Positions 3,010 to 28,378 of a stretch of DNA of 64,000 bases are shown here, one piece after another. The notes beneath the pieces are model-generated. The model searched no databases. It was not told the DNA's origin and was given only the letters and a program-made list of their open reading frames with translations. The stretch comes from Rhizophagus irregularis. Lineage: Eukaryota; Glomeromycota; Glomeromycetes; Glomerales; Glomeraceae. Where the stretch lies: assembly GCF_026210795.1 (NCBI RefSeq), contig NC_089438.1:4671501-4735500 (forward strand), written 5' to 3'. The first letter of the stretch is position 1; every line of letters starts with the position of its first letter. The translations under genes were made by a program, and so were the position numbers.

Positions 3010-4575
3010 CGCTCACCAGTGGTGAAATTCACCAGGGGTAAATTCACCAGGGGTAAATTCACCAGTGGTGAAATTCACCCAAGGTAAAGTTCACCTATAT
3101 TACATAATTTATTAAAATTTAAATTGTTTTGTTTTGAAAAAAATAATAATTTTATTAATAAAAATATTTATATAAAATATATAGTTTAAATATAATAATA
3201 TATTATACAATAATTTATAATTTAGTATTATTATAAAAAATGGATAAATCCTATAAGTATTAAGTAGATTTTATACTGCTAAACAACTTTCAATTAATAA
3301 AGGAAGTAAATTTCATTGGACTAAAGTGGTGAAATTACACTCTAAAGTTAGTAAATGGAAAAAAGAAAAATTCGAAAGTTAGTACCATGATGAAAAACGT
3401 AGATTTCTCCATATGTATTATACCTATACCCATAAAAATTAATATATAAGTAGTTTCGACCTTGCTGAACAATTTTCAATTAAGTTAGAAAGTCGATTTC
3501 ATTTGACTAAAGTGGTGAAATTATGCGCTGAAGTTAATAAATAGAAAAAAAAAAATTCGAAAGTTAGTACCGTTATGAAAAATGTAGATTTCTCCATATG
3601 TATTATACCTACACCCATGAATATTAATATACAAGTAGTTTCGACCTTGCTGAACAATTTTCAATTAATTTAGTAAGTCGATTTCATTTGACTAAAGTGG
3701 TGAAATTATGCGCGGAAGTTAATAAACAGAAAAATATTTTCAAAAGTTAGTACCGTTATGAAAAATGTAGATTTCTCCATATGTATTATACCTACACCCA
3801 TGAAAATTAATATAAAAGTAGTTTCGACCTTGTTGAACAATTTTCAATTAATTTAGAAAGTCGATTTCATTTGACTAAAGTGGTGAAATTACGCTCTAAA
3901 TTTAGTAAACGGAAAAAAGAAAAATTCGAAAGTTAGTACCATTATGAAAAATGTTGGTTTCTCCATATATATTATACCTACACCCATGAAAATTAATATA
4001 CACGTAGTTTCGACATTTCTGAACAATTTTCAATTAATTTAGAAAGTTAGTTTCATTTGGCTAAAGTAGTAAAATTACGCTCTGAAGTTAATAAATAAAA
4101 AAACAATTTTAAAAGTTAGTACCATTATGAAAAATATGGGTTTCTTTATATGTATTATACCTACACTTATAAAAAATAATATACAAGTAGTTTTGGCTCT
4201 GTTGAACAACTTTAATTAATAAAAAAAATTGATTTCATTTGACTCAAGTAGTGAAATTACACTCTAAAGTTATTAAATAAAAAATATAAAACTTTAGGAG
4301 TTAAACAGTTAGTAGTGTTATAAAAACACAAATTTCTCTATAAATTTCATTTCTAATTTATGAAATTGAGTTGTATGGGTTTAATAGTATGTTTGGAAAA
4401 AAAAGTTACAGTTTAAAAAAATTCATAAAAAAATTTTTATTTACGTGTATGAAATTGTAAAACGTAATACAAACAAAATTAATATAAAACTAAAATTATC
4501 ATATTACTGGTGAATTTCACCAGAGGTAAATTCACCCCTGGTGAATTAATTTTAAATTAACCACTGGTGAATATA
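3010..4575. mobile_element. Non-coding element with inverted ends and an internal satellite
   Basis: The left end (about 3012-3085) has four TTCACC blocks joined by AGTGGTGAAA or AGGGGTAAA. The right end (about 4505-4575) carries the same blocks in reverse complement: GGTGAATTTCACC, then CCCCTGGTGAA, then CCACTGGTGAA. Reading the right end backwards gives TTCACCAGTGG followed by TTCACCAGGGGTGAA, which matches the left end. No long reading frame lies between them. Inverted termini and lack of coding point to a non-autonomous DNA element (MITE-like, about 1.56 kb). A clear target-site duplication was not seen. Confidence 0.6.
3290..4345. repeat. Six tandem copies of a ~184-bp satellite unit
   Basis: The phrase CTAAAGTGGTGAAATT or a close variant starts at 3321, 3507, 3692, 3875, 4061 and 4243, giving spacings of 186, 185, 183, 186 and 182 bp. 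Each unit also carries AAAGTTAGTACC, TTCTCCATATGTATTATACC and TAGTTTCGAC phrases. The first and last units are the most diverged. The array fills most of the inside of the inverted-repeat element. Confidence 0.85.
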
Positions 4576-11629: not shown

Positions 11630-13276
11630 ATGACTTCTACACCTTATATCGAAATAGACTGGTCTTCCACTTCACAACAACCTTAACTTCAACTCGGTGA
11701 CCTAACACCACCTGAAAATGACTCAGATAATATATTACATAATACTGAGCGGCCAACAGTACTTTCTTCTAAGAATATTCTTTCCCTTGATATTGATGAT
11801 ATTTATCCTTTTACGTACTTAACTCTTCATCTCGAATAAGATGAAATGGAAGAAACCTATGACAATGAAGATTACTTTCAGCAGTTACTAAATACTGCAC
11901 TAAACAGTAAAATAGAAGTAGTCAGCTATGGAGGAAATAATATACCCTCAACCTCCTGACGTTCCTTTAACTCCTATCATTAATGATAATACTCCGCCGC
12001 CTTCAAATATTGCGCCTGCTTCAGCAAATTTACCTAAGGATGAAAAAGAAAATACTTTCTTGGTCTCCCTGAAAAAACCTGACGTGACTATGCCAAAACG
12101 ATCAGGTTATAACAAGATTTATGAAATCTGCCATCTAGGACAACCTGATACCATTACGGGCTCATTTCCTGAGAAAAAGAACTATTATTTCGCAGTCTCG
12201 TTTAAAAAATTTCACATGATAAGGATACACAAAACTGGTCACAACAAGATCTACAATTATAGGCGTTCAAAAAGTTTCTTTATTGAGATCACGGATCAAT
12301 CTTCAAACACCAATGATATTCATTTAAAGATACACACAAATGACTATCTCATGTCAACCGCCCCGATTAGTTATAATTCCACGAGTGTCCTACCTAACAC
12401 CAAATATCAAATTAGCAAACAGCTTCAGCATTTTTTTTCCGCACAAAGAGTTATTCCACGCAAAATTCAGAATAAATATTTTAATTTAATACGGAAAAAA
12501 TTATTAGAACGCATCACGTTCATTAAATCACATGAGGACAAAAATGATCATCATAATACATTAACAAAAACTTTCTTCAATTTTTCTTACAAAAAATATC
12601 GGTTCTACTTTGGCATTTATCTTCCTTGCCAACATGTGACAGTACACAAAGGACTTAGTGTAACTTCTTTATGTGATCTTCCATCTCCTATTGTAAAATC
12701 TAATCACTGTCATAGATGTGGCCTTCACTTTCACTTAAAATACCCTACCAAGACCATTGAAGTAAGAAATAATGAAGGAAATATTGTAGATAATGACTAT
12801 ACATGCTGCCCAAATTATTTTGGGATGCCATAATTATAATTTGGGATGCCATAATTCATTCGGTTTATATATAATTTACTATGTAAAGTGCCAAAATAAT
12901 TTGGGATGCCATAATTGAATTTGGGATTTTACTTATAATTATGGCAGTCCAAAATAATTTGGGTGGCATGTATAATAATGACCACTCACAAAATAAAGCT
13001 TTTCACGCTAATTTAATTTTTGAGCGCTGGAGAAATAGAGAAATTAAAACTATTAAGTCTCTTCATACGGGAATTTCTTACAACTCCCGTTACATGGCCC
13101 GTAATCATTTCCGCAATATTACAGCAGGTAGAATTCATATGTACCACAAATTACTGAACGGTTTTCGGTTCTCTCCAAGTCCAAATCCTAAGACAGCGAC
13201 AAAGCAGAAACAACGTTTTGAATGCTCTGTTAGAAGAGTCCTCAAAGATGAAACAATTAAACCAGGTGGTATCACA
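11630..13276 (+). pseudogene. R1 unknown protein, N-terminal half (broken)
   Basis: Homologous to the R2 protein at 22710-24761. Shared stretches include the NKIYNYRRSKSFF region, TKTFFNFSYKKYRFYFGIYL and (L)FxRW followed by a His/Tyr-rich region. In this copy the frame starting at the ATG at 11630 meets TAA stops after 17 codons and again near 11838. A frame change lies near 11928. The frame 11928-12833 is interrupted by a MITE and resumes at about 12957-13276, where D-outer cuts it. Thus it is dead in at least four ways. There is no recognised domain. C/H pairs (HCHRCGLHFH and CCPN near 12705-12815) hint at metal binding, which is inference only. Confidence 0.75.
12818..12954. mobile_element. 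137-bp MITE flanked by TA, inside the R1 gene
   Basis: The inverted ends are TTTTGGGATGCCATAATTAT at the left and ATAATTATGGCAGTCCAAAA at the right, with TA on both sides (12816-12817 and 12955-12956), the Tc1/mariner-type target. The sequence ATTTGGGATGCCATAATT is repeated three times inside. It encodes nothing and interrupts the R1 reading frame. Confidence 0.7.
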
Positions 13277-13479
13277 GGTCGAACAGATGTCATTGTCGCA
13301 AAATTTGCCTGGAATTTTTCTGGCAAATTGAGAATTATTGGGGTAAATTGTGTTACAATTTTGGGATAATGGAGGTCTTACAATTTGGCAAATTTTGTCA
13401 AAATGGCGGAATTCCTACAGAATTCCTAATTCAAATGTTGAGAAATTTTTCAGTAAATTATCATTAAATTGTGGGAAAT

Positions 13480-14000
13480 TTTAGGCAAATCTTTAGTAAT
13501 GATATGCAAACGAAGTGCAAATTGTGGTGAATTTAGTCAAATTTTTAGTAATTTTATGCAAACGTAATGCAAATTGTGGTGAATTTAATTAATACTATGT
13601 AAACGAAGTGCAAATTGTGGTGAATTTTTAGCAATATTAGGCCAATGTTATGTAAATTGTGATGAATTTTTTGTAATGATACGTAAATTGCAAATTTGAA
13701 ATAAAAATTTTCCATTGTTGCACAATTTACCAGGAAAATTCTGGTAAATTGTGCATTTTTTTTGTCAAATTTTGGAAAAATGGACCATTTTACCAAAATT
13801 CAACTTTCAAATGCTAGAAAAATTTTAACAATTTTAGACAATTGAGCGACAATGGTTTGACAATTTTTGGATAATTGAGTGCAAATGCAATATTTTAAGA
13901 CAATTTCTGACGATTAAGTGATAATTAAGCAACAATTTGGCGTAATTTTATGCAAATTTTATAACAATTTATTATGATTTTAATTTTATTAACAATTTAC
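13480..14000. repeat. Left subterminal repeats of D-outer
   Basis: About three copies of an ATGCAAACGNA(G/A)TGCAAATTGTGGTGAATTT-type unit, followed by GACAATT-rich degenerate repeats. The equivalent block in D-inner (18880-19640) has about nine copies. Small reading frames here come from the repeat. Confidence 0.7.
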
Positions 14001-14084
14001 CATTATAATATGTAATTAAGTACAATAATGTTAAAGAAAAACAAACATAAAAAAAACAAAAAGTTTTGAAGGTTAATCTTCGAA

Positions 14085-15745
14085 ACTCACCAAGCAAGGA
14101 GCCAAAGAACTGTTTACTTTTGTTATTTCATTACAATAATCTACAAAAAAAGAAAACTGTTCAGTTAGAACGTTTCTTAAAGAAAAAACAGGAGTTTCAT
14201 AACAAAATATACGAAACTTACCAAGCCATATCCAATACCTGAACGGAAAGTAATGGCTTCTATTCAACAATGGTTTTACGCGATTCATGTTTCCTAAGTT
14301 AGCTTCCCAGATATCCCGAACCTACAAAAAAGAAAAGGAACGTTAGTAAACGGTTCCTAATAAAAAAAATCAAAAAAACTTGTTTCGTGATACTTGTCAC
14401 AAAACTCACCATTTAAATTGAAGTTTCGAAGTTATACTTCGAAACCTAAACGTTATCCAAACCCAAGACTTTTGAAACTGGAGGGAGGGAGCTCCAGATC
14501 AATCAGACTCCCAAAATCGATCTACAAAAAAAGAGAGAAACGTTAGAACGTTTCTTAAAAAAAATTAAAAAAAAAATTAAGTTTCGCAACGTTTATGTTG
14601 CAAAACTTACCAAAGTCAAGTATCCCGCTCAAATCTACAAAAAAAAATAAAAGAGAAACGTTAAAAAACGTTTCTAATAATAAAAAATAAAATAAAACAC
14701 GGTAAGTTTCATTGCGAAACTTACCATTTTCACTTTCCAATGACACCCGACTTGGAGACCTACAAGAAAAGAAAAGTAAAAGAAACGTTAGGACGTTTCT
14801 TAATTAAAAAAAACAAAAAAGATAAGTTTCGTTAAACAAAACTTACATTTTTCTGTTTTGGAATCCTGGAGCACTTGAACCTACAAAAAAAAAGTAAAAG
14901 AAACGTTAGAGCGTTTCTTTATTAAAAAAAAAATAAAAATATAATAAGTTTCGTTAAAACGAAACTTACTTTTTTCCATTTCGGAATCAAGGAGAATCAT
15001 TAATGAATATTCATGCTGAAACTTAGCGTTCTCACAGGTCTTTTAACGTTTCTAAAAAGACCTAATAATCTAGTGTTGATTTATTCCAGGTATAGTCTAA
15101 TGAATTTACGCTCCTGGAACACCGGAACCTACAAAAAAAAGTAAAAGAAACGTTAGAGAATGTTTCTTAATTAAAAATAAAATAAAATATAATAAGTTTC
15201 GTTAAAACAAAACTTACATTTTCCGTTTTGGAATCCTAGAGCACCGGAACCTACAAAAAAAAGTAAAAGAAACGTTAGAGAACGTTTCTTAATTAAAAAA
15301 AATATATAATATAATAAGTTTTGTTAAGACAAAACTTACATTTTCCGTTTCAGAATCCTGGAGCACTGGAACCTACAAAAAAAAGTATAAGAAATGTTAG
15401 AGAACGTTTCTTAATTAAAAAAAAATATAATATAATAAGTTTCGTTAAAACGAAACTTACATTTTCTGTTTCAGAATCCTGGAGCACTGGAACCTACAAA
15501 AAAAGTATAAGAAACGTTAGAGAACGTTTCTTAATTAAAAAAAAAATAATATAATAAGTTTAGTTAAAACGAAACTTACATTTTGCCATTTCGGAATCTT
15601 GGAGTAACGGAACCTACAAAAAAAGGTAAAAGAAACGTTAAAACGTTTCTTAATAAAGAAAAAAAAGTAAAAAAATAATAATTTAAGTTTCGTAAGGTAC
15701 GAAACTTACCCGACTTCTCCAAATGTAACGATGATTGCCATACCA
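14085..15745 (-). repeat. Tandem array of microexon-like units with splice signals and hairpin introns (array 1)
   Basis: On the minus strand nearly every ~120-bp unit has T-rich tract plus GTAG acceptor, a short exon, and a GTAAGTTTCG or GTGAGTTTCG donor. Exon-like segments: to 15710, 15613-15580, 15493-15461, 15372-15340, 15250-15218, (15128-15110), to 14970, 14880-14847, 14759-14725, 14634-14611, 14521-14410, 14321-14222, 14140-14091. Three consecutive exons are exactly 33 nt. Two of them encode VPVLQDSETEN in frame after an ATG at 15741; the third has TAG in place of CAG. Each intron has a hairpin of GTTTCG/CGAAAC type at its 5' end and an AAACGTT/AACGTTT hairpin just before the acceptor tract. 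Seen directly: periodicity, hairpins, splice consensus. Inferred: that it is transcribed and spliced. Confidence 0.75.
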
Positions 15746-15905
15746 ACGGGGAATGGGAATGGTGGTGAGGGGGAAGGTCGAGAGAGAGGGAAGTGGGGAG
15801 AGAGGGGAAGGAGAAACGTGACGGGAAAATGGTGAAAAGAAGGGAAGAGGAATATGGAGCGAAATAAACTAAATTAGTTTTTTTTTAAACTCTAAAAAAA
15901 AACTG
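15744..15905 (-). other. Pyrimidine-rich leader upstream of array 1
   Basis: Purine-rich on the plus strand (GAGGGGGAAGG, GAGAGAGGGAAG and similar). Read on the minus strand it is a CT-rich leader ending near the ATG at 15741. D-inner has a longer equivalent at 22040-22280. The conserved position just 5' of the first donor suggests a leader of the same transcript. Confidence 0.5.
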
Positions 15906-16030
15906 CGGCTGCGGCTGCAATAGTTTATTTTTAGCATTTTTAGGTTAGTTAAAAAATGAACTGCGGCTGTGCAGTTTAACCAAGTTCATGTCACGTGATA
16001 TCGTGACATGTATTTTATATAAATAGGGGC
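15905..16030. promoter_or_regulatory. Putative promoter block: GC hairpins, CACGTG palindrome, TATA
   Basis: CTGCGGCTGCGGCTG lies near 15903, and a perfect 24-bp palindrome centred on TGATAT lies at 15987-16010 and contains CACGTG-like arms. TTTATATAAATAGGGG follows at 16014-16029. The same order occurs in D-inner: GCAGCTGAAGCTGC, ATCACGTGATGCACGTGAT at 24991-25009 and TATATAAATAGGGG at 25019-25032. The TATA can be read on either strand. A divergent promoter serving the minus-strand array and the plus-strand conserved segment is plausible but unproven. Confidence 0.5.
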
Positions 16031-16083
16031 ATTTTTCCCGAAAAAAATTTTTTTTTTATAATTTTTTTTAATTTAATTACGAT

Positions 16084-18284
16084 TTTTTTTTTTTTTTTTT
16101 TGGTAAACGTATTTATTAATTTATTAGTAAATGTAACGCATCACAATACAAAATAATTATAACAATTATACTTGAAATTCAGGATCAAACAATCCTGAAC
16201 TCCTCCATACCAAAGCCAAGGGTTATCTAACCAAGGCGCGGATAAACATAACCAAAGATAGAACTAAAATAAAATATTACAACTGGGTGAAATCTATTCA
16301 AAAAACTATTTTTTAATTCTACTACTCCTACCCTTTTTTACCACTCTACTAAAACCTTCCAGGGGTGTTTTATTTATTTTGTCAGTATTGGGTTTAGTTT
16401 CAGGTTGGAGTTCCATCTTCATTTCAACTTCGCTCGAGCTATCTATGGTTGGATCTTCTTCCGAATCACTACTTCTTGCGCCTTGTTTCTTCTTTATACG
16501 CTTTTTGACATCTTTTAGACATTCATCGTCATCCGAAGACTCTGATAAAGGTGACTTGTCTTTCTTTTCAATTAAGAAAGGGTTATTGTTTGAGAGCGTA
16601 TACGGACGATCACTCTTCTTTTGTAGTCTTTCTGTACAATCAGCGTTGACTTTGGCAAATTCATGTAATTCCACAGGCGTAACGGTTTTACTTATCAGCT
16701 TTGCTTTCGATTTTTGTTCTCGTTCTTTCATTCTTTTATCGTACCTTTTAAACTCTAAAATAAGCTCTTCCTTTCTTCTTTTAATATATTCGTTTTTCTC
16801 CGATAAGTCTGTAGGAATTCCTTCTTGAGTCAGTGCATTTTCATGTTCTGTAAAGACTTCTCCTCTATATTCTTCTATAATCTTAACCACATTCTCCGGT
16901 GAAGTGTATCCTTTAGTCGTAGGCGTTACCGAGGGCTGAATTTGTGTTTCAGGTTCGTCCAGTAAATTCCTCCTGTATTTGTTAACGGTATCGACTACTT
17001 CTTCTGTGGTTGTATGTATGACAGTATTAGGCGTAGCTGATGTTGATCCATGGTTGTTAATGGATATTACTTTGTTGGTTTTTCCCGGGGACGTACTGAT
17101 GAGAGATCTGGCTGTCACCTCTTTTGAGGCTATTTGCACCATACTCTCGTGTCGTCTTCCATGTATTACCCATTTGTTGTCCATACTTTTATCCACGGCA
17201 ATCGCAGCCTCTAGTTGTTCTTTATTTTTGAAATATGCTAAGAAAACTGTCTTATTTCCAAAACATGCTGTTTTTCCAAATTCGAAGGTGAAGTTATTTC
17301 TCGCTATGTCTTGGTAGTAATTCGTTTGAATCACTTTGTAGGCTTTCCACTTGCATTTTTCCTTTATGTCTTTTACTGTCTTGTCTCCATGGAACCAACG
17401 GACATCAATGACTTTTTTATTTTTTTCGTTGCTTCCAATCAGTATCTTTTCTTTCCACGCTCCTCTCGTGAACGAATCTTCGTATTCTTCTAATAATGAA
17501 ATCTCGGCTTTTACTGATTGATATTTATAATGTTTTTTTATAGTAATTCTATGCACCGTTCCTAATTGTTTGATTGCGTTGCATACTTCTGTCTCGCTAT
17601 AGCGTACTGGGATATCATAAAAAAGCATGTCACATGACCGAGTTCCTTGCGCCTCCTGACCTGGGACCTGATCGGCTTTTGTTGGGAGTACAATCTCCTG
17701 AACTATTCTATTTTTCATTTTTTTCACGTTTTTCTTTTTTTTGCTTTTTTCCTTATTCTCGGATGTTTTTGATTGGTGTTTTAACTCGCTATCAATTTCT
17801 GCATTTAGCGTTGTATCATGTGTCAGATTTTTTTGCTGCGCTTGGCGCAGCCATGAGCGAAGGCGAGAATTTTGTTTTCCAATATTTTGAACGTCGTTAT
17901 TTTGTATTCTATATGCAAACCTCATTATACTTCTTGCTATTATTTCAACATTTTCACCCTTTATACCTATTATCTCACTAATTTCGACTAGTAGCCTGTG
18001 GGTTTTAAGCGTCCTGAAAAAAATTTTATCGAAGGTATCGTCCAGCTCCTCTTTTTGTCATAACTGAGCTTCTTTGAAGTTTTTTGTTACAAAAGTCTTG
18101 ACGTCTCTTAAGAGCTGTTCTTCGAACTCCTCTTGTCCCCGGTATGACTCCATTTTATTATAATTTTTTGTAAGAAAAAGCAAAAAAAAAAAAAAAAATT
18201 TTTAAATTTTTATTATTATTTTACTAGTCTTACTGCGGAATTCTAAGAATTTTAGTTCACACGGAAAAGAGTTTTTTTTTCATC
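16084..18284 (-). mobile_element. Retroelement R3 (minus strand) with poly-A and 15-bp TSD
   Basis: TAATTTAATTACGAT occurs at 16069-16083 and again at 18285-18299. Between them lies a 2201-bp insertion ending (minus-strand 3' end) in a long A run (T run at 16084-16102) and beginning with AAAAAAAAACTCTTTTCCG. D-inner lacks this insertion at the matching place. It encodes one ORF1-like protein and no reverse transcriptase. Confidence 0.8.
16306..18153 (-). CDS. ORF1-like RNA-binding protein of retroelement R3, with an in-frame TGA
   Basis: From an ATG at 18153 the frame reads 31 codons (MESYRGQEEFEEQLLRDVKT and on), meets TGA at 18058-18060, then stays open in the same frame to 16306 (615 sense codons in all). 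The first ATG after the TGA is at 17925 (539 residues). A lysine-rich segment is followed by an RRM-like fold (MLFYDIPVRYSETEVCNAIK, then IKKHYKYQSVKAEIS), with further basic and acidic low-complexity segments at the C-terminus. This is typical of ORF1 proteins of non-LTR retrotransposons, which bind element RNA. The TGA may be a nonsense mutation or a readthrough stop. Plus-strand frames across this interval are shadows. Confidence 0.65.
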
Positions 18285-18357
18285 TAATTTAATTACGATA
18301 GATGTGTATATATACTTATATATATACATATATATATATCTATCTAACAACTTTACG

Positions 18358-18462
18358 AAAAGCCCCTCCTCTGTAAACAGGTAGAGGCCATAAAGTACCT
18401 ATAGGGGGAGAGCCATTGCAGCTCCCTCCGCCTGTTTATAGTGACAAAAAGAGGGTCTTCAG
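18358..18462. other. Conserved, probably structured non-coding segment of D-outer
   Basis: AAAGCCCCTCCTCTGTAAAC then AGGTAGAGG, AGTACCTATAGGGGGAGAG and CTCCCTCCGCCTG. Nearly identical to 25139-25244 in D-inner, while sequence on either side is AT-rich and diverges faster. CCTCTGT..ACAG..AGAGG and CCCCTCC..GGGGGAG can pair. A small structured RNA or a transposase/host-factor binding site are both possible. Confidence 0.5.
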
Positions 18463-18879
18463 TAGTAAGATTTAGTACTAAATTAAACATCACAACACAT
18501 CGTGTTGATACATTGTTTGTATTAACAATGTGTTTAATGTTAAATAATGCATTTAGAATATTATAAATTTAATAATGTCCGTAATTTACAAATAAATAAA
18601 AATAAAAATTAACAATTTTAATGTAATTAAGTGTAATGCTAGTGACAGGTCGAACAGATGTCATTGTCGCAAAATTTGCCTGGAATTTTTCTGGCAAATT
18701 GAGAATTATCCCGGTAAATTGAGGTAAATTGTGTTACAATTTTGGGATAATGGAGGACTTACAATTTGGCAAATTTTGTCAAAATGGCGGAATTCCTACA
18801 GAATTCCTAATTCAAATGTTGAGAAATTTTTCAGTAAATTATCATTAAATTGTGGGAAATTTTAGGCAAATTTTTAGTA

Positions 18880-19640
18880 ATGTTATGCAAACGAAGTGTA
18901 AATTGTGGTGAATTTAGTTAAATTTTTAGTAATTTTATGCAAACGTAATGTAAATTGTGGTGAATTTTAGGCAAATTTTTAGTAATTTTATGCAAACGAA
19001 GTGCAAATTGTGGTGAATTTAGTTAAATTTTTAGTAATGTTATGTAAACAAAGTGCAAATTGTGGTGAATTTAGTTAAATTTTTAGTAATTATATGTAAA
19101 CGTAATGTAAATTGTGGTGAATTTAGTTAAATTTTTAGTAATGCTATGCAAACGAAGTGCAAATTGTGGTGAATTTAGTTAAATTTTTAGTAATTATATG
19201 TAAACGTAATGTAAATTGTGGTGAATTTAGTTAAATTTTTAGTAATACTATGCAAACGAAGTGCAAATTGTGGTAAATTTAGTTAAATTTTTAGTAATGT
19301 TATGCAAACGTAATGCAAATAGTGGTAAATTGTAGTGTATTTTTAGTAATATTATGTAAATTGTTGAAAATTTAGGTGAATTTTTCAGCAATGTTGTGCA
19401 AACGTAATACAAATTGTGGAAAATTGTGGTGAATTTTGCATTTTTTTGGTAAATGTTAGCTAGATTTTTGAATAATTTAGTGAAATTTAGGATAATTTCG
19501 GACAATTGAGTTAAAATGTTTTACCGATTTTGGACAATTGAGTGTAAACGATATAAATGCAACATTTTCAAAGATAATTTAGTGAAATTTTGCAATAATT
19601 TCAGATAATTGAGTGAAATTTTCGGACAATTGAGCGAAAT
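18880..19640. repeat. Left subterminal tandem repeats of D-inner
   Basis: About nine copies of a 50-62-bp unit built on TATGCAAACG(A/T)A(G/A)TG, AAATTGTGGTGAATTTAG and TTAAATTTTTAGTAAT. Degenerate GACAATTGAGTGAAATTT repeats follow. Short frames across this block are repeat artefacts. Confidence 0.8.
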
Positions 19641-19889
19641 TTAGTAATAATTTTAAACAATTTAGTGTAAACGCCATGACAATTTAAAACACTGATTTAT
19701 AATCTATTATAATTTTATTTATTAATAAATGCACAATTATTATTATTTAACGATAATCTATATTTATCAGATATCCGATAATCTATGGATAATCCGCACC
19801 AGTGCCAAAATAGAAAACCTAAAAAAGAAAAAAAACGAAACATTAATATACGTTTCGTAAAAAAAAATAAATTAAAGAAACATTTCAAA

Positions 19890-22040
19890 GTTATATACCT
19901 TCGAAATGTTGAATTCCATACGTCCAATAAGCCGTTGAACCTAAAAAAGAAAAAAAACGAAACATTAATTTATGTTTCATGAAAAAAATTAAATTAAAGA
20001 AACATTTCGAAGTTATATACCTTCGAAATGTTGAATTCCATACGTCCAATAAGCCGCTGAACCTAAAAAAGAAAAAAAAACGAAACATTAATTTATGTTT
20101 CGTGAAAAAAATTAAATTAAAGAAACATTTCGAAGTTACATACCTTCGAAATGTTGAATTCCATACGTCCAATGAGCTGCTGAACCTAAAAAAGAAAAAA
20201 AAACGAAACATTAATAACCGTTTCGTTGAAAAAAATAAAAATAAAAAATATTTCGAAGTATACCTTCGAAATATTGAATTCGGTCTGTCCAATGGCCGCC
20301 GAACCTAAAAAAAAAAAAAATGAAGCGTTAATAAACACTTCGTTGTAAAATAAAATAAAAAAATTTCGAAGTATACCTTCGAAATATTCCCTTTCGTTTT
20401 CCCTTTCCCTTTCGTTCTCACCCTTCCCTTTCGTCTTCTCTTTCGTTTTCTCTTTTCCTTTACATTTTTCACCTTCCCCTTTCATTTTTCACATTCCCCT
20501 TTCATTTTTTACCTTTCCCTTTCGTTCTCATCTTTCTCTTTCCTTTCGTTCTCACCTTTCCCTTTCATTCCTTTAACCTATAAAAAAACAAAAAATAAAC
20601 AAAACTTAAATAATGTTTCGTTATATAATAAAAGAACACCCCACCAAATACCCGGAGTTTCCTTTGTCTCCTCCAATTACTTGGATGGGTTCTTCAATTC
20701 ATTCACCTTTGCCAAGCACTTTCTTTTTGAACTTCTTAACCATTTTAGTTCCAATTTGGCAGAAGTGGATGTTAAGGTGATCTATAAAAAAAATTGAAAC
20801 TTTAGTTAACGTTTCGTTAAGAAATAAAGAAAAAAATATAAACAAAAACAAAATTCCCTTTATTACCTTCCACCCAAAGTCCGGTTCGTGAATTCGTTCC
20901 GGCGTTCCTACAAAAAGTAAAGGAAAGAAACATTTAATATCGTTTCTTTAAAAAAAAACAATAAATTAAGTTTCGCAATGATTCGTTGCGAAACTCACTG
21001 GGTCGTTTCATTCAAACGTCTGGAACCTACAAAAAGAAGGAAAGAAACGTTAGTTAACGTTTCTTTTAATAAAAAAATAAAAAATTAAGTATCGCAATGT
21101 AACATTGCGAAACTTACCGGTTCGTTTCCATCATTCTAACGTCCGGAACCTACAAAAAGTAAAAAAGAAATGTTAATATAAACGTTTCTTATAATAAAAA
21201 AAATAAAAATTAAGTTTTGCAATGTAACATTGCGAAACTTACCATCATCCTAACGTCCAGAACCTACAAAAAGTAAAATAAAGAAACATTAGTTAACGTT
21301 TCTTAAAAAGAAATAAATAAAAATAAAGTTTCGCAACACAATGTTGCGAAATTCACTGGTTCGTTTCGAACTCATCATCCAAACGTCCGGCGTTCCTACA
21401 AAAAGAAAAAGGAAACTTAGAAACGTTTCCTTACAAAAAAAAGAAAAAAATTTTTTTCTTAAAAGTTTCGAAGCATACAACAACACGCTTCGAAACTTAC
21501 CGATTCGCTTTCCAAAGTTGAATATCGAAAAATCTCTACAAAAAAAAAAATAGGAAATGTTAGAAACGTTTCCTTACAAAAAATTAAAAAAAAAATAATT
21601 TTTTTTAAAAAGTTTCGAAGCGAAACTCTTCGAAACTTACCCTTTCGGTTCCTTGCTTTCCGAAGTCGAATACTGAAAGACCTACACAAAAAAAGAAAGA
21701 AAGGAAACGTTAGAAAAGTTTCCTAAAGAAATTAAAAATTTTCAAAAAGTTTCGAAGCATATGCTTCGAAACTTACCATTTCGAATCCCAAAGAAGCATG
21801 CCGAAGGACCTACACAAAAAAAAAATAAGAAACGTTAGATACGTTTCCTAAAGAAATTAAAAAAAAAACACTGTTTCGAAGCGAACTCGCTTTGAAACTT
21901 ACCCTTAATTTCCTAAATTTCCGAAATCGAATATCGAGATCTAAAAAAAAGAGAGTATAGGAAGCGTTAGAAACGTTTCCTAAAAGAAATTAAAAAAAAT
22001 ATATTAAAAGTTTCGAAGCGAATGCTTCGAAACTTACCAT
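19890..22040 (-). repeat. Tandem array of microexon-like units with splice signals and hairpin introns (array 2)
   Basis: Same architecture as array 1, read on the minus strand. Exon-like segments between TAG acceptors and GTAAGTTTCG, GTGAGTTTCG or GTATAYTTCG donors: to 22038, 21940-21903, 21809-21777, 21681-21641, 21535-21501, 21395-21357, 21263-21243, 21149-21118, 21026-20999, 20907-20867, 20781-about 20709, 20304-20264, 20185-20144, 20062-20021, 19940-19899. Three of the last four are exactly 42 nt with almost identical sequence (VQRLIGRMEFNISK if in that frame). Each intron starts in a hairpin such as GTTTCGAAGCAT/ATGCTTCGAAAC and has a second AAACGTT-type hairpin before the acceptor. 20390-20575 is a CCCTTTCGTT-rich tract inside the array. 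Confidence 0.75.
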
Positions 22041-22290
22041 TTCGTTGGAATTTTCCGGGAAGGGAAAGGAGAAGGGGAGAGAAAGAGAGGGGAAAAGGGT
22101 GAAGGGAAGGGAAATGAAATGAAAAGGGAGGAAGAGAACGAAAGGGAAAGGGAAAATGGAGGGGAGAAAAGGGGAAATGAAATGAAAAGGGAGGAGGAGA
22201 AAGGGAAAGGGGAAATGGAACGAAAGGGAGGGGGAGAACGAAAGGGAAAGGGAAAGGGAAGAAAGAAAGAGGACGTGAGAAAAAAAAATT
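22040..22290 (-). other. Pyrimidine-rich leader upstream of array 2
   Basis: GGGAAAGGG/GGAGG-type purine repeats on the plus strand (CCCTTTCC on the minus strand), ending at the ATG-GTAAG at the first donor (22038). Directly comparable in position to 15744-15905 in D-outer. Confidence 0.55.
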
Positions 22291-22309
22291 AAGCTTTTGC
22301 TAAAAAAAG
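22291..22309. other. Perfect hairpin beside the R2 insertion site
   Basis: AAGCTTTTGC and its loop partner AAAAAGCTT form a short stem with an A-rich loop immediately before the left R2 target duplication (22310-22328). Confidence 0.5.
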
Positions 22310-22328
22310 CTTAATTTTTTTTTTCGTT

Positions 22329-24935
22329 TTATTTATTTATTTATTTTATGTAAAGTCGGAAGGACTATTCTAAGAGAGCATTAATTACAAGAATTGCGCC
22401 CAACATTTAGTCCATCATCTACCTGTGGGGCAGACCCAAACTAATTATTATATACCATAGACTGCTCCAACAACACAGCCGATGAAGGAGCAGGTATGAA
22501 GAGACAATTAAATGACAAGCACCAATCCGTATTTTTCTTTCAACCCAAAGGGTTGCCACCTGTAAATACTGTAAGAGGTGGAATGGTTTACACTATTTTG
22601 AGTTGTTAAAAGTCTAACGTAAAAAAATGAACTAAAATGCTAATTAGCATATACAAATAGAAGCTAATATATTTATAAATCTATATCTAAAAATTTGACT
22701 AATGAGTACTTAAATAGTACGAGTAGATGAACTATTTTCTAAATCCTTCGATGCGGATAGTATACAAACCTTTTTATCTTTATGATAACCATAGTGAGTA
22801 TCTAAATTGCTATTATCACTGGCACTTCGTTTAAGCGGTCTGTCGTCTATAATGGCACAAGACTGAAATGCCAACCCGATTTCTTTCGTATAGTATTCGA
22901 TGCAAAAAATATTTTCCAAATTGTGAACCCGAGAGTATAACTCTTCTAAGATTTCAGTATCTTCTTGTTTTTTCCGTTCAATTTCTCGTAATAATTGTAA
23001 TCGACGCTTTTCGTGTTTTTTGCGTTCGCTTTGTTTAAGTGGTCCAGATACAGTTGGTAAATCGGGTATTACTTCGGATGAGATTTCAAGTAATTTCATC
23101 TCATAGTTATACTGAGCGTTGGTGAATTCCATTACATGATTGCATAGATCCATCCGGTATTCGCCTTGATCAGGAGTGGTACCCCATTGTATTCCAGCAT
23201 CAATTCTTCCTTGTTCGTATTCAATCATTGATACGTGATCATCATAAATTTCTTTCATATGAGCTAGCCAGCCATCACTGCCAACTGCAAGTGGTTGTAA
23301 TTTCTTTTTCTGGACTTTATTATGAGAAGGTTGATTCAATCGGCCACCTTCATAGATTGCAGACTGAGGAATTAACGGAATATAATGTTCAGGTACATTC
23401 TCCCAATTATCAGTATTAGCTGGGGATATAGGTATGTCATTTGGTTTAGGTGTGACGGAGCTGATGTTACAAATTGTCTCCACTATAACAGGTACAGATA
23501 CAGTCTTAGGTTCAGGAAATGGGATCGGAAAGGTGTAATAACTTTGTGATGGTTCAGCGAATTTATTCTTGTATCTAAGGTGTTTGATAGGAGTGGTGAA
23601 ACTTTGATTTTCTTGAAATAATAATTTGTGACGTCGTGCAGCTCAGAGTTTATCATCCTTTAGCGCATTATCATCCAGCTTGGCGTTATGAAAGGTATGT
23701 CTAACCAAAGCATTAAAACGTGCTTCTTGTCTTTTCTTGACATTTGGAGACGTGCTGGGAGTAAATTGAAGATTCCCATATTTTTTGCCGTAAATAAAAT
23801 CAAGTCCTTTTGTAGCGACGACATTAGTGTTATACACATGGTATGATGTGGTGAAAGAAATTCCTAATCGATTCGAAAAATTCTGATGTTTCTTCTTCTT
23901 AGCCCATCTGTTGAAGAGGCGAGTTGCATGAAAATCTTTGAATGTTTTGCAAAAACTAACGTCAGGAATTTTGTTATCCTTCGAGATAAAATATAGGACT
24001 AGATTCTTGTGGTGAATAATACAGGCATGACGATGATGTGACATTGTGAAAGGAACTGGAATGGAGCAGGTCGCAATAGTATTGGACAATAGACCTGCTG
24101 TATGAGTATGATTACATGGGAGATAAATTCCAAAATAAAATCTATATTTTTTATACGAAAAATTAAAAAAAGTTTTAGTCATGTGATTGTTTTTGTCTTC
24201 TTTTTGGGCACGTGATGTTATGAAATCCAAATGCTCCAATAGTTTTTTACGAATGTATGTAAAAAATTTTTCTTGTAATCTTCGAGGAATAACTTTTTGT
24301 ATTGAAAAAAAATGCGTGAGCTGTTTCGATATTTGAAATTTGAAATTAGGGAGTTGGCTCGTGGAATTGTGATTAATCGGGTTAGAGGACATATGATAAT
24401 CATTGGTGTAAATCTTCAATTGAAGTTGATTGGTGTTTGGTAATTGATCAACCAGCTCAAAAAAGAAACTCTTTGAGCGCCTATAATTGTAAATCTTGTT
24501 ATAACCGGCTCTATGAGGTGGGGTCATGTGGAACTTTTCATATTTTGTAGAAAAAATATAGTGTTTGTTAGGCGAATAAAAGGGCCTAATATCATCAAAG
24601 TTATTATGAAGTGAAGGTATATCCGATAAAGTGTCATCAATAGGAGGTGTTGTTCGTATAATATCGTGGTTGAAAATGAAGTCGTTAGGACTAACGGGTG
24701 TATGGTCGTATCCAGGTGCAGGAGCAAAGTCATCGGCTCTTGGAAAATAAGACATAACCAACCCTTAAATATGGGTATACTGAGAACACTAAAACCTCGT
24801 CTTATGCCCGAGGCACCCTTAAGGGCCTCTTCCCTTTAGGTATTTCAAATAGAAACTAAAAAATAAACTTGCGCAAAATTACTGCGGAAAATTACCGAAA
24901 TGAAAAAAAAGGGGAAAGAGTTTTTTTTTTTTCCT
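22329..24935 (-). mobile_element. Retroelement R2 (minus strand), intact ends, 19-bp TSD
   Basis: CTTAATTTTTTTTTTCGTT is present exactly at 22310-22328 and 24936-24954. The minus-strand element starts with an A run and ACTCTTTCCCC, has TTGCGCAAGTTTATTTTTTA in its leader, one gene, and ends ACATAAAATAAATAAATAAA. The 3' UTR (TAAACCATTCCACCT, ATTTACAGGTGGCA, AGTTTGGGTC) matches R1. No reverse transcriptase. D-outer lacks this insertion at the equivalent point. Confidence 0.82.
22710..24761 (-). CDS. Unknown retroelement protein (R2 copy) with one in-frame TGA
   Basis: ATG at 24761. The frame is open for 372 codons to a TGA at 23643-23645, then open in the same frame for another 310 codons to 22710. 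R1 has a sense codon at the matching place (KLAAARKRK against KL-stop-AARRHK), so the two halves are one ~680-residue protein. The first half has a Lys/Tyr/Phe-rich core (NKIYNYRRSKSFF, TKTFFNFSYKKYRFYFGIYL) and later His/Tyr motifs. The second half has a helical Glu/Lys/Arg segment (about 150 residues from the end) resembling a coiled coil. No known domain was recognised and there is no RT or endonuclease motif. The TGA could be a point mutation or read through. Confidence 0.7.
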
Positions 24936-24990
24936 CTTAATTTTTTTTTTCGTTATACCGCAGCTGAAGCTGCGGTAATTATTAAGTAAT

Positions 24991-25032
24991 ATCACGTGAT
25001 GCACGTGATAGATAATTTTATATAAATAGGGG
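24991..25032. promoter_or_regulatory. CACGTG palindrome plus TATA in D-inner
   Basis: ATCACGTGATGCACGTGAT followed by TATATAAATAGGGG, equivalent to 15987-16029 in D-outer. Retained in both copies despite surrounding divergence. Confidence 0.5.
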
Positions 25033-25138
25033 CTTTCCCCGCCCCGGAATTTTTTTTTTTTTATTTTAATAATTTTAAATAGATGTATATATATGCTTAT
25101 ATATACATATATATATATCTATTAACTAATACTTTACG

Positions 25139-25244
25139 AAAAGCCCCTCCTCTGTAAACAGGTAGAGATCATAAAGTACCTATAGGGGGAGAGCCATTGC
25201 TGCTCCCTCCGCCTGTTTATAGTGACAAAAAGAGGGAGTCTTCA
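25139..25244. other. Conserved structured non-coding segment of D-inner
   Basis: Second copy of the segment at 18358-18462 (AAGCCCCTCCTCTGTAAACA, AGTACCTATAGGGGGAGAG, CTCCGCCTGTTTATAGTGAC). Same position relative to the promoter block and right tail. Confidence 0.5.
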
Positions 25245-25399
25245 GTAGTAAGGTTTAGTATTAAATTACATCACAACACATCGTGTTATATTAACAATGT
25301 GTTTAATGTTAAATAATGCGTTTAAAATATAAATATTATAAATTTAATAATGTACGTAATTAAATAAATAAAAATTATCATCAATTTTTAATGTAATTA

Positions 25400-26540
25400 A
25401 GTGTAATGCTACATTATCCAATGTAATTGTAGTATTTTTTTGTATTTTTTAGTGCAATTCCGCGTTTTTTAGTGCAATTCCGCATTTTCTAGCATAATGT
25501 TACATTTTCCAGTATAACGCGAAATTTTTTAAAAAAAAAATGATAATTGTGGTACTTTTTAGTGTAATGCTACATTGTCTAGTGCAATTGTGGTATTTTT
25601 TAGTGCAATTCTGAATTTTCTAGCATAATGTTACATTTTCCAGCATAACACGAAATTTTCTAAAAAATATGATAATTGTGGTACTTTTTAGTGTAATGCT
25701 ACATTGTCTAGTGTAATTGTGGTATTTTTTAGTGCAATGCCGCATAATCTAGTATAGTGCTACATTTTTTAGTATAATTTAATGTAATGTGGAATTTTCC
25801 AAAAAATGAGATAATTGTGATGCTTTTTAGTGTAATTTGGTGAAATGCTACATTTTCCAGTGTAATGCTATATTACTGAGCATTTTCAAAAAAAAATGTA
25901 AAATCTTAACATTCTGACGAAAATGAAACATTTTGACCAAAAAAACGTAAAATTTGCTGAAAATATGCAACATTTGACAGAAAATATAGAATTTTCATAA
26001 AAAAATACACCATTTGCAAGAAAATCGGAATATTTGACAAAATTTGAATTTAATTGACAATGTTATAACAATTTTATGAAATGTTGTTACAATGATATCA
26101 CATTGAAGATAAAATGTGGCATTTTCATAAAAATGCACCATTTGCAAGAAAATTGGAACATTTGACAAAAAAAAAGCAAAATTTGATTTTAATTGACAAT
26201 GTTATAACAATTTTATTAAATGTTATTACATTTGAGGTAAAATGTGAAATTTTCATAAAAATGCACCATTTGCAAGAAAATTGGAACATTTAACAAAAAA
26301 AAGCAAAATTTGATTTTAATGACAATGTTATAACAATGTTACGAAATGTTACAAAAATGTTACATTTGAGATATAATGTAGCATTTTCCCAAAATTTCAT
26401 AAGATTTGCTAAATCGGACAATGTTGTAACAATGCTATTCCAAAAAATTGCTCAGCGTAATGCAGCATTTTCCACAATTTCCCACCATTTTCTAGGAAAA
26501 TGGGGAATTTGCATTTTTTGAATTTTGGACAATGGCGCCC
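25400..26540. repeat. Right-tail tandem repeats of D-inner
   Basis: 25400-25880: degenerate repeats of AGTGTAATGCTACATT and AGTGCAATTCCGCATTTT. 25980-26540: about three ~115-bp units with AATGCACCATTTGCAAGAAA, AACATTTGACAAAAAAAA, GACAATGTTATAACAATTTT and AAATGTTATTACATTTGAGG. The same two blocks occur in D-outer at 26558-27560. Reading frames here are repeat artefacts. Confidence 0.8.
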
Positions 26541-26557
26541 CTTCAACCTGTGTTAAA

Positions 26558-27560
26558 TGCTACGTTATCCAGTGTAATTGTAGTGTTTTTTTGTGTTTTT
26601 TAGCGCAATTCCGCATTTTTTAGTGCAATTCCGCATTTTATAGCATAATGTTACATTTTCCAGTATAACACGAAATTTTCTAAAAAATATGATAATTGTG
26701 GTACTTTTTTAGTGTAATGCTACATTGTCTAGTGTAATTGTGGTATTTTTTAGTGCAATTCCACATAATTTAGTATAGTGCCACATTTTTCAGTATAATT
26801 TAATGTAATGTGGAATTTTCCAAAAAATGTGATAATTGTGATACTTTTAGTGTAATTTGGTGAAATGCTACATTTTCCAGTGTAATGCTATATTATTGAG
26901 CATTTTCCAAAAAAAAAATTGTAATATTTTAACATTCTGACGAAAATGAAATATTTGACCAAAAAAATGTAAAATTTACTGAAAATATGCAACATTTTGA
27001 CAAAAAAATATAGAATTTTCATAAAAAATGCACCATTTGCCAGAAAATCGGAATATTTGACAAAATTTGATTTTAATTGACAATGTTATAACAATTTTAT
27101 GAAATGTTGTTACAATGACATCACATTGGAGATAAAATGCAGCATTTTCATAAAAATGCACCATTTGCAAGAAAATTGGAACATTTGACAAAAAAAAAAG
27201 CAAAATTTGATTTTAATTGACAATGTTATAACAATTTTATGAAATGTTATTACATTTGAGGTAAAATGTGGAATTTTCATAAAAATGCACCATTTGCAAG
27301 AAAATTGGAACATTTGACAAAAAAAAAGCAAAATTTGATTTCAATGACAATGTTATAACAATGTTACGAAATGTTACGAAATGTTACATTTGAGATATAA
27401 TGTAGCATTTTCCCAAATTTTCATAAAATTTGCTAAATCGGACAATGTTGTAACAATGCTATTCCAAAAAATTGCTCAGCGTAATGCAGCATTTTCCACA
27501 ATTTCCTACCATTTTCCAGGAAAATGTGGAATTTGCATTTTTTGAATTTTGGACAATGGT
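26558..27560. repeat. Right-tail tandem repeats of D-outer
   Basis: Continuation of D-outer after the D-inner insertion, with the same repeat types and order as 25400-26540, ending in the right terminus at about 27576. Confidence 0.8.
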
Positions 27561-27576
27561 GCCCCTTCGACCTGTG

Positions 27577-28378
27577 TACCTCCAGCACTTCAACAAAGCT
27601 AGCTGCAGCAAGGAAACGTAAATTCCTTTTCTTAAATTCTCAGAAACTTACCCCTCGTGTTAACCATTTACATTACAAAAAATCAGGTTCAATCCCAGTT
27701 CAGACAGATTATAATATCAAAATTCCTACTTTTGATAGCGAAAAATCAGAGACAATTAGTTCTTTATTTTCTCCTACTCCGTATTGTCCAATACCAGACA
27801 TGTTCTTTCCTCTGCAGTATCGGAATATTATTCCACCAGATCCTATTTACGATGAGTACAACAACTTTATCATCCCAGGTTCACGGAATTGGTTCACTTA
27901 TATGTATAATCTATCAAAAAGTCATATCGCCAATCAAAAAGCTAAGGCTAGAGATCCCAATGAAGTTGCTGCATATCACGGTACAACGCGTAAACATTTG
28001 ACAAATAGAATGGATGTTGTGAATAGAATTACTACCTATAACAACACTTATGATCGCATTATGACAACGTATAGAAATTCTGCGTTACAAAAATTATCTA
28101 GACGCAAGCTTAAAAATCTTAACACAGAGATGGATTATTTTTTTTCAGCACATCCTTATGCCATACATGATCATCATCGTCATAGTGAGAAACTCCAGCA
28201 TGAAACTGTTACATCAGACGACACTAAAGAAGTTGAGATGCATCCTCTTAAACGAGATATTTATGTCTCTTCGTCCATGGATGGTGCACGCAATATGTCG
28301 AAACGTATCTGCTCAGATTCTACTTTAGCTTCAGATTCCAAGCAAGCGGGTTCACTTCAGAGCACCAATACTAACTAA
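27577..28378 (+). pseudogene. R1 unknown protein, C-terminal half
   Basis: Open for about 265 codons to TAA at 28376-28378. Matches the second half of the R2 protein in layout: KLAAARKRKF, an N-terminal HLxYK, then a GSRNWFTYMYNLSKSH region aligned with GSDGWLAHMKEIYDDH, a helical middle and a Ser/Lys-rich end. It is separated from its N-terminal half (ending at 13276) by the ~14.3-kb D-outer insertion. The frame continues leftward into the element end only by chance, so the start at 27524 is not a real start. Confidence 0.75.

Follow-up and report, generated by a model that had tools for sequence, protein, structure and literature searches.

Organisation of the locus

In the 64,000-nt stretch analysed here, from the genome of the root-symbiotic fungus Rhizophagus irregularis (hereafter the window; contig NC_089438.1 of GCF_026210795.1), two CACTA-type elements, one nested in the other, carry three arrays of short intron-like units on the minus strand. 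The features discussed below are the following:

13273..18641: outer CACTA-type element, first part, with array A and an insert at about 16090-18270
26556..27576: outer element, second part, including the right terminal inverted repeat
18645..26552: inner CACTA-type element, with arrays C and B, nested in the outer element
13273..13283, plus strand: left terminal inverted repeat, CACAGGTCGAA
27566..27576, plus strand: right terminal inverted repeat, TTCGACCTGTG
13466..13614: left subterminal tandem repeats, 52 bp
18847..19437: left subterminal tandem repeats of the inner element
25444..27387: right subterminal tandem repeats with many periods, 10-129 bp
14141..15709, minus strand: array A, hairpin introns interspersed with short exons
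15709-15614, 15579-15494, 15460-15373, 15339-15251, 15217-15129, 14969-14881, minus strand: introns 1-6 of array A
14846-14760, 14724-14635, 14610-14522, 14409-14322, 14221-14141, minus strand: introns 7-11 of array A
14031..14090, minus strand: twelfth donor of array A (at 14090) and its hairpin, for which the script called no downstream acceptor
15745..15850 (approximate limits), minus strand: C/T-rich leader preceding array A, promoter-like by composition only
19819..20376, minus strand: array B, 5 introns of 72-81 nt
20908..22037, minus strand: array C, 9 hairpin introns of 91-105 nt
22050..22290 (approximate limits), minus strand: C/T-rich leader preceding array C
16306..17925, minus strand: 539-aa ORF of another repeat family, within the insert of the outer element and not part of the array
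22336..24985: second insert, with ORFs at 22710-23483 and 23643-24761

A preliminary description of array A had reported about 13 transposon-borne units on the minus strand, each arranged as intron, microexon and intron. The place, the strand, the transposon setting and the tandem arrangement are all as described, while the count comes to 12 donors and 11 complete introns: the stretch from 15709 to 14141 contains 11 complete intron-like units, each 81-96 nt long, followed by a lone twelfth donor. This donor and the start of its hairpin are kept in 8 of 8 aligned copies, the donor reading AGTGAG in L001. Arrays B and C, both upstream of array A, follow the same design, and the three arrays of the window have 25 complete introns. 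In array B, the hairpin extends across the exon end and has the donor GTAT at its tip.

A typical unit starts with GTRAGTTT running straight into hairpin 1 (GTAAGTTTCG...CGAAACTT), followed by a T-rich stretch, hairpin 2 (AAGAAACGTT...AACGTTTCTT) and a T-tract ending in TAG. The sequence CTAAC is often found at the loop of hairpin 2, and a CTAAC-like branch site usually lies inside this hairpin; 110 of 160 introns have the motif CTRAY in their last 60 nt. Donor, branch site, T-tract and acceptor follow each other in the order of a U2-type intron. Copies of array units with lost acceptors (GTAA) were found in L001, L003, L006 and L007, as expected of dead elements.

The leaders are also shared among copies, with sequence matching 15745-16083 preceding array A in L003-L007 and a match to the leader of array C preceding that array in L012-L017, L019 and L020. 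Outside the elements, the window contains a tandem repeat of 183 bp at 3277-4291 (5.5 copies, 86% matches).

Carrier transposons

The preliminary description treated 13275-27576 as one element. We found two instead: in L001 the counterparts of 18641 and 26556 lie side by side, with a 7-base overlap, which places the inner element (18645-26552) as an insertion nested in the outer one. The first base of the inner element is changed (GACAGG at 18644). The window's own target duplications are not clean, since the triplets flanking the outer element are TAT/TAC and those flanking the inner element do not match. In other copies, we searched for the 11-bp ends CACAGGTCGAA and inverse, which start with CAC, allowing one mismatch. 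Among the 12 array elements with both ends in hand, 11 have a 3-bp target duplication; the exception is L003, with a 4-bp match instead.

The annotated interior of the array elements consists mainly of subterminal tandem repeats, a C/T-rich leader and one or two arrays. Array A has at least 40 matching places in the genome (40 of 452 candidates scored). The inserts vary among copies: L003 lacks 16083-18280, and the second insert (22336-24985) is absent from the annotated array elements compared. The 539-aa ORF in the first insert belongs to an unclassified repeat family with at least 76 genome matches and has no Pfam match at E 0.01.

The locus L021 (235-8625) contains a CACTA element with the same ends as the array elements and no array; its 3-bp target duplication also matches. 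One of its ORFs, a putative transposase gene, has a Transposase_21 (tnp2) domain (PF02992, E 6.9e-10). This family looks young, since 10 further places match the first 2,566-2,590 bases of its interior at 96-98% identity. The presence of an array inside this transposase-bearing element was considered and rejected, as its interior has 0 perfect hairpins of at least 9 bp versus 18 in the array of L012. The array is therefore not needed for transposition.

Given the shared ends, the 3-bp duplications and the tnp2 relative without array in L021, the array elements are best read as non-autonomous CACTA transposons. They resemble CACTA (CMC/EnSpm) elements in their CAC-starting terminal inverted repeats (CACAGG...CCTGTG), 3-bp duplications, subterminal tandem repeats and tnp2-type relative, but differ in the interior, which is a hairpin-intron array here and not a deleted transposase or plain filler.

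Exons and coding potential

Three successive 33-nt segments are indeed present in array A, and their equal length had been proposed to keep the reading frame. It does not, since the third one reads GTT CCG GTG CTC TAG, with an in-frame stop, and further exons of the array have 34, 34, 35, 24, 112 and 100 nt. Exon lengths modulo 3 (0/1/2) are distributed as 39/53/44 in 136 exons and as 44/71/48 in 163 unique short exons. The common 31-nt exons, which several copies carry in tandem, are in most cases interrupted by stops in two frames. When the exons of arrays with at least 4 internal exons were joined and the longest open run was compared with that of shuffled exons, 0 of 16 arrays were more open at p<0.05 (lowest p 0.075, mean z -0.12). 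The open frame across joined exons that marks a protein-coding microexon gene was not found in them.

The many-microexon protein gene suggested in the preliminary description is thus contradicted by exon lengths, stops and the joined-exon comparison. It could still be imagined in a degenerate form, as a gene of the autonomous ancestor now decaying in the non-autonomous copies: some exons have 33 or 42 nt with an open frame, and exon lengths recur by unit type across copies. The same length distribution (39/53/44), the stops in the 31-nt exons and the lack of any array more open than its shuffles at p<0.05 argue against it, as does the tnp2 relative, which has no array. We consider this explanation improbable and largely refuted.

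No processed copy offering proof of splicing was recovered among the matches listed: 0 of 62 joined-exon matches (14 of 14 candidates scored) and 0 of 147 (40 of 52 candidates scored) cross a junction by more than 2 nt. Structured microexons, suspected by eye, were rejected, with a mean z of -0.05 over the 61 exons that are non-redundant at 80% among the 163 unique ones. In Rfam, the region 13200-27700 gave 6 matches with E from 0.19 to 0.85, none reaching the gathering score.

Spliced-leader RNA genes have a similar order of parts and a tandem layout, so each unit could alternatively be seen as such a gene, composed of a short exon, a hairpin donor, a T-rich stretch and a second hairpin. We regard this as extremely unlikely. 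The exons are diverse where a conserved leader would be required, a strong acceptor-like site is located ahead of each exon, and no match in Rfam attains the gathering score in 13200-27700.

Conservation of splice signals

Introns with 25-nt flanks were compared with 21 loci and the element region, considering alignments to other loci with 78-96% identity (4338 alignments, not mutually independent). Mismatch is 1.0% at GT and 1.9% at AG dinucleotides, compared with 11.2% for exons and 11.1% for mid-intron positions. Near the splice sites, they reach 4.0% at acceptor positions -4/-3 and 5.6% at donor positions +3 to +6; values are 8.4-9.4% in stems, 8.6% in the T-tract and 14.5-19.0% in loops. 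The branch motif, with 8.7%, is little below the exons. The rate at GT and AG is thus about 6-11 times lower than in exons or at mid-intron positions. The query introns were chosen intact, which alone can lower the GT/AG mismatch by up to about half; the neutral expectation is therefore about half the background, and the observed values are still well below it.

When each distinct target unit is counted, 237 of 264 retain GT and 233 of 265 retain AG, versus 367 of 670 and 347 of 916, respectively, in an exonic control outside CpG, where losses are probably inflated by misalignment. The suggestion that paired splice signals are kept beyond drift, which had been made from the window, is therefore borne out in other copies; the refuting outcome named with it, splice dinucleotides diverging as much as the spacers, did not occur. 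We suggest, as the best reading of these data, selection on the splice cassette (donor, hairpins, T-tract and acceptor) and not on an exon frame.

Hairpins, covariation and strand coupling

We called 203 unique introns from 19 of the 21 loci and the window. A 5' stem score of at least 6 was found in 98.5% of them, versus 30% when the inner letters were shuffled, and a 3' stem score of at least 6 in 99.5%, versus 51% in shuffled introns, in agreement with the earlier observation that the spacers begin and end in hairpins. Across the genome (146,748,485 bases in 32 contigs), the pattern GTRAGTTTCG N4-24 CGAAACTT has 757 matches, a full palindrome counting once per strand, of which roughly the first hundred were listed; the reversed control pattern has 0. 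Inside the elements of the window, 21 of 27 intron-like sites have a 5' stem score of at least 7. Outside them, this score is reached by 10 of 39 intron-like sites, none with the GTTTCG stem. As a control for ordinary introns, we took eight gaps between tubulin or chaperonin coding matches. Four of them were parsable on the correct strand, all in chaperonin genes, with 5' stem scores of 3-7 and without the GTTTCG stem.

For the covariation analysis, introns of unusual length, those with two donors and three faulty calls were removed from a set of 209, and thinning below 88.5% identity left 43. We specified the two-hairpin structure ourselves and then tested it on a MAFFT alignment made by sequence alone. 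Three measures exceeded all 500 shuffles: standard pairs in the two named helices (90.6% vs 85.2% in shuffles), double-change cells (73 vs 27.5) and covariation score (0.198 vs 0.110), 0 of 500 shuffles being as high in each case; the tool warns that relatedness can raise these three measures. Structures slid along the alignment gave at most 48.7% standard pairs, 18 double-change cells and a covariation score of 0.080. On the other hand, pairs changed on both sides (10 vs 7.7 in shuffles, 5-7 in slid controls) were reached by 61 of 500 shuffles, and further pair types (27 vs 25.0, 17-19 in slid controls) by 83 of 500. Since these two of the five measures are within the shuffle range, we consider the evidence for covariation of the hairpin arms as good, not conclusive.

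RNAalifold did not predict the two local hairpins on the intron alignment; it favoured a weak long-range helix between the donor arm and the 5' arm of hairpin 2. In most of the 43 introns, the donor arm GTTTC (alignment A1, columns 5-9) is complementary to GAAAC of hairpin 2 (columns 75-79), so that an intron might switch from the two local hairpins to a donor-branch pairing and back. Relative to shuffles, G-T pairs show no excess over A-C mismatches in the 5' stem (54:28 vs 43:21 shuffled) or in the 3' stem (23:29 vs 45:16 shuffled). The stems could therefore be constrained as DNA.

The coupling between hairpins and splice signals was evaluated starting from hairpin cores, with no splice signals required. 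Of the 252 donor-type cores, GTRRG is found on a single strand in 162, on both strands in 5 and on no strand in 85, and 65 of the last group have an acceptor-like site on one strand or the other. For the 162 one-strand donor hairpins, such a site was present 25-100 nt downstream on the donor strand in 147 and on the opposite strand in 0. Among the 187 branch-type hairpins, an acceptor lies within 30 nt on a single strand in 171 and is missing from both strands in 16, and CTRAY lies inside the hairpin on the acceptor strand in 119 of those 171, versus 3 on the other strand. This asymmetry of donor, branch and acceptor is partly due to the T-richness of one strand.

A satellite of DNA palindromes and T-tracts could merely resemble introns, its signals being preserved in young duplicates or as protein-binding palindromes. 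CACTA elements often carry protein-binding repeats, and hairpins alone seem to be tandemly repeated in L035 (180-1260), where a run of branch-type hairpins (AATCGGAACGTTGGCTAACGTTCCGATT and relatives) with T-tracts has, by eye, no evident donors or acceptors and sits inside a would-be single long intron. The lack of a G-T excess and the two covariation measures not above shuffles also fit a DNA palindrome. In contrast, a satellite would account poorly for the coupling of donor, branch and acceptor to one strand, even if partly helped by its T-richness, for the slow change of GT and AG and for the same cassette in arrays with different exons, and we consider it unlikely.

Multiplication of the units and other arrays

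To follow how the units were copied, pairs of introns from 231 units were compared together with their flanks, which were taken as unrelated below 55% identity. Unrelated flanks were found in 0 of 202 intron pairs at least 95% identical and in 0 of 550 pairs 90-95% identical, being present in 373 of 4266 pairs at 80-90% identity. An intron alone in unrelated sequence, the mark of an introner and often accompanied by a target duplication, was therefore not observed at 90% identity or more. As 0 of 752 such near-identical pairs are in unrelated flanks, recent copying moved exon and intron together, thus pointing to unit duplication and transposition. The pairs at 80-90% leave room for an older insertion of introns alone.

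Recent introner-style multiplication, one of the options raised previously, is not supported by these comparisons. More generally, the hairpin intron could be an introner-type element inserting itself into pre-existing sequence: one intron design is found at hundreds of places beside different exons, and the more divergent pairs would represent old insertions. This is at odds with the related flanks of all closer pairs, with intron ends that are not mutual inverted repeats and with the four parsable chaperonin-gene introns, which have no such hairpin, and it seems to us very improbable.

The same intron design and cassette, with different exons, occur in other arrays, five clusters of which were examined. 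Of 12 apparently isolated sites taken from those listed, 9 have at least two hairpin introns within about 2.2 kb. For arrays X1-X3 (three of the five clusters), the surrounding sequence, about 11 kb, revealed no ends of CACTA type similar to the 11-bp ones; the design may therefore not be confined to the CACTA family. The X2 array is near a Tc5-type transposase fragment. In L035, a Tc5-type transposase fragment (3403-4095; HTH_Tnp_Tc5, E 1.2e-13) lies downstream of an array without nearby CACTA ends.

A probable splice-dependent cargo

What remains of the three options of the preliminary description is a splice-dependent element RNA. We suggest that the arrays are probably a non-coding, spliceosome-dependent cargo of non-autonomous CACTA transposons. 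This proposal builds on features established at the sequence level, namely the anatomy, the conservation of splice dinucleotides, partial covariation, the lack of a frame and the transposon with its 3-bp duplications, which together suggest that the elements keep splicing itself and not a protein. Each array would be a non-coding transcription unit made of tandem exon-plus-intron units, growing and shrinking through duplication of whole units. Transcription would start from the C/T-rich leader, and the spliceosome would remove each intron, presumably a strong U2-type spliceosomal intron with its donor in hairpin 1 and its branch site usually in hairpin 2. How fast donor and branch site are recognised may depend on the hairpins.

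The advantage for the element is more speculative. A row of strong introns might allow the element RNA to be exported and kept out of splicing-triggered RNA interference; an element shielded in this way could stay in open chromatin and be mobilised by tnp2 relatives. We put forward this chain, from efficient splicing to export, escape from RNA interference, open chromatin and mobilisation, as a tentative possibility. A model for a transposon profiting from efficiently spliced introns comes from another fungus, Cryptococcus, where splicing is reported to favour the export and expression of RNA, and transposon RNA that is spliced poorly can enter RNA interference (PMC5851062).

Comparison with known systems

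Introners, as presented in two reports (PMC9860276, PMC4457414), are likewise spliceosomal introns multiplied in connection with DNA transposons; unlike them, exon and intron are copied together here, in tandem and inside the element. Neither report mentions Rhizophagus or Glomero- in its main text. The SP7-like effector genes of Rhizophagus, from the same fungal group, have tandem protein repeats and a conserved intron before the first repeat, and the accessible portion of the paper (PMC11333574) does not describe an inter-repeat intron. Compared by architecture alone, they were rejected as a counterpart, since their architecture differs and the arrays have no open frame. We found no description of such arrays in the accessible portion of the open literature searched, including that on Rhizophagus repeats and assembly.

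If the proposal is true, a transposon would be keeping splicing without keeping a protein. The arrays offer hundreds of natural variants of one intron design, which could reveal how donor and branch structure governs splicing, and they bear on intron multiplication and on whether splicing shields transposons from silencing. Long-read RNA of Rhizophagus irregularis has been published (PMC10234402), making the central claim testable soon.

Captured host gene fragments

Fragments of host genes were found in at least 2 of 17 other-array loci. As these fragments lie among and inside microexons, the arrays could act as exon traps. A broader view, which we hold only as a conjecture, is that of selfish splicing arrays, a non-coding cargo of more than one DNA transposon family selected for repeated splicing through donor and branch hairpins, whose capture of fragments may provide exon traps for chimeric genes or small RNAs.

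In L025, positions 1169-1645 are identical in 468 of 477 bases to L053 (1495-1971), ordinary intron included. The protein matches Mito_carr (E 4.7e-12), and this mitochondrial-carrier-like fragment is flanked by hairpin introns of the array; the donor after it seems, by eye, to be lost. In L022 (1376-1554, minus strand), a fragment with weak WD40-type matches (best E 0.0004, below the curated cut-offs) is located inside a microexon, with a hairpin donor directly after it. It aligns with L051, on another contig, in 172 of 203 columns (85%) with a 24-base gap. The second places, L053 and L051, would be the parents of the respective fragments.
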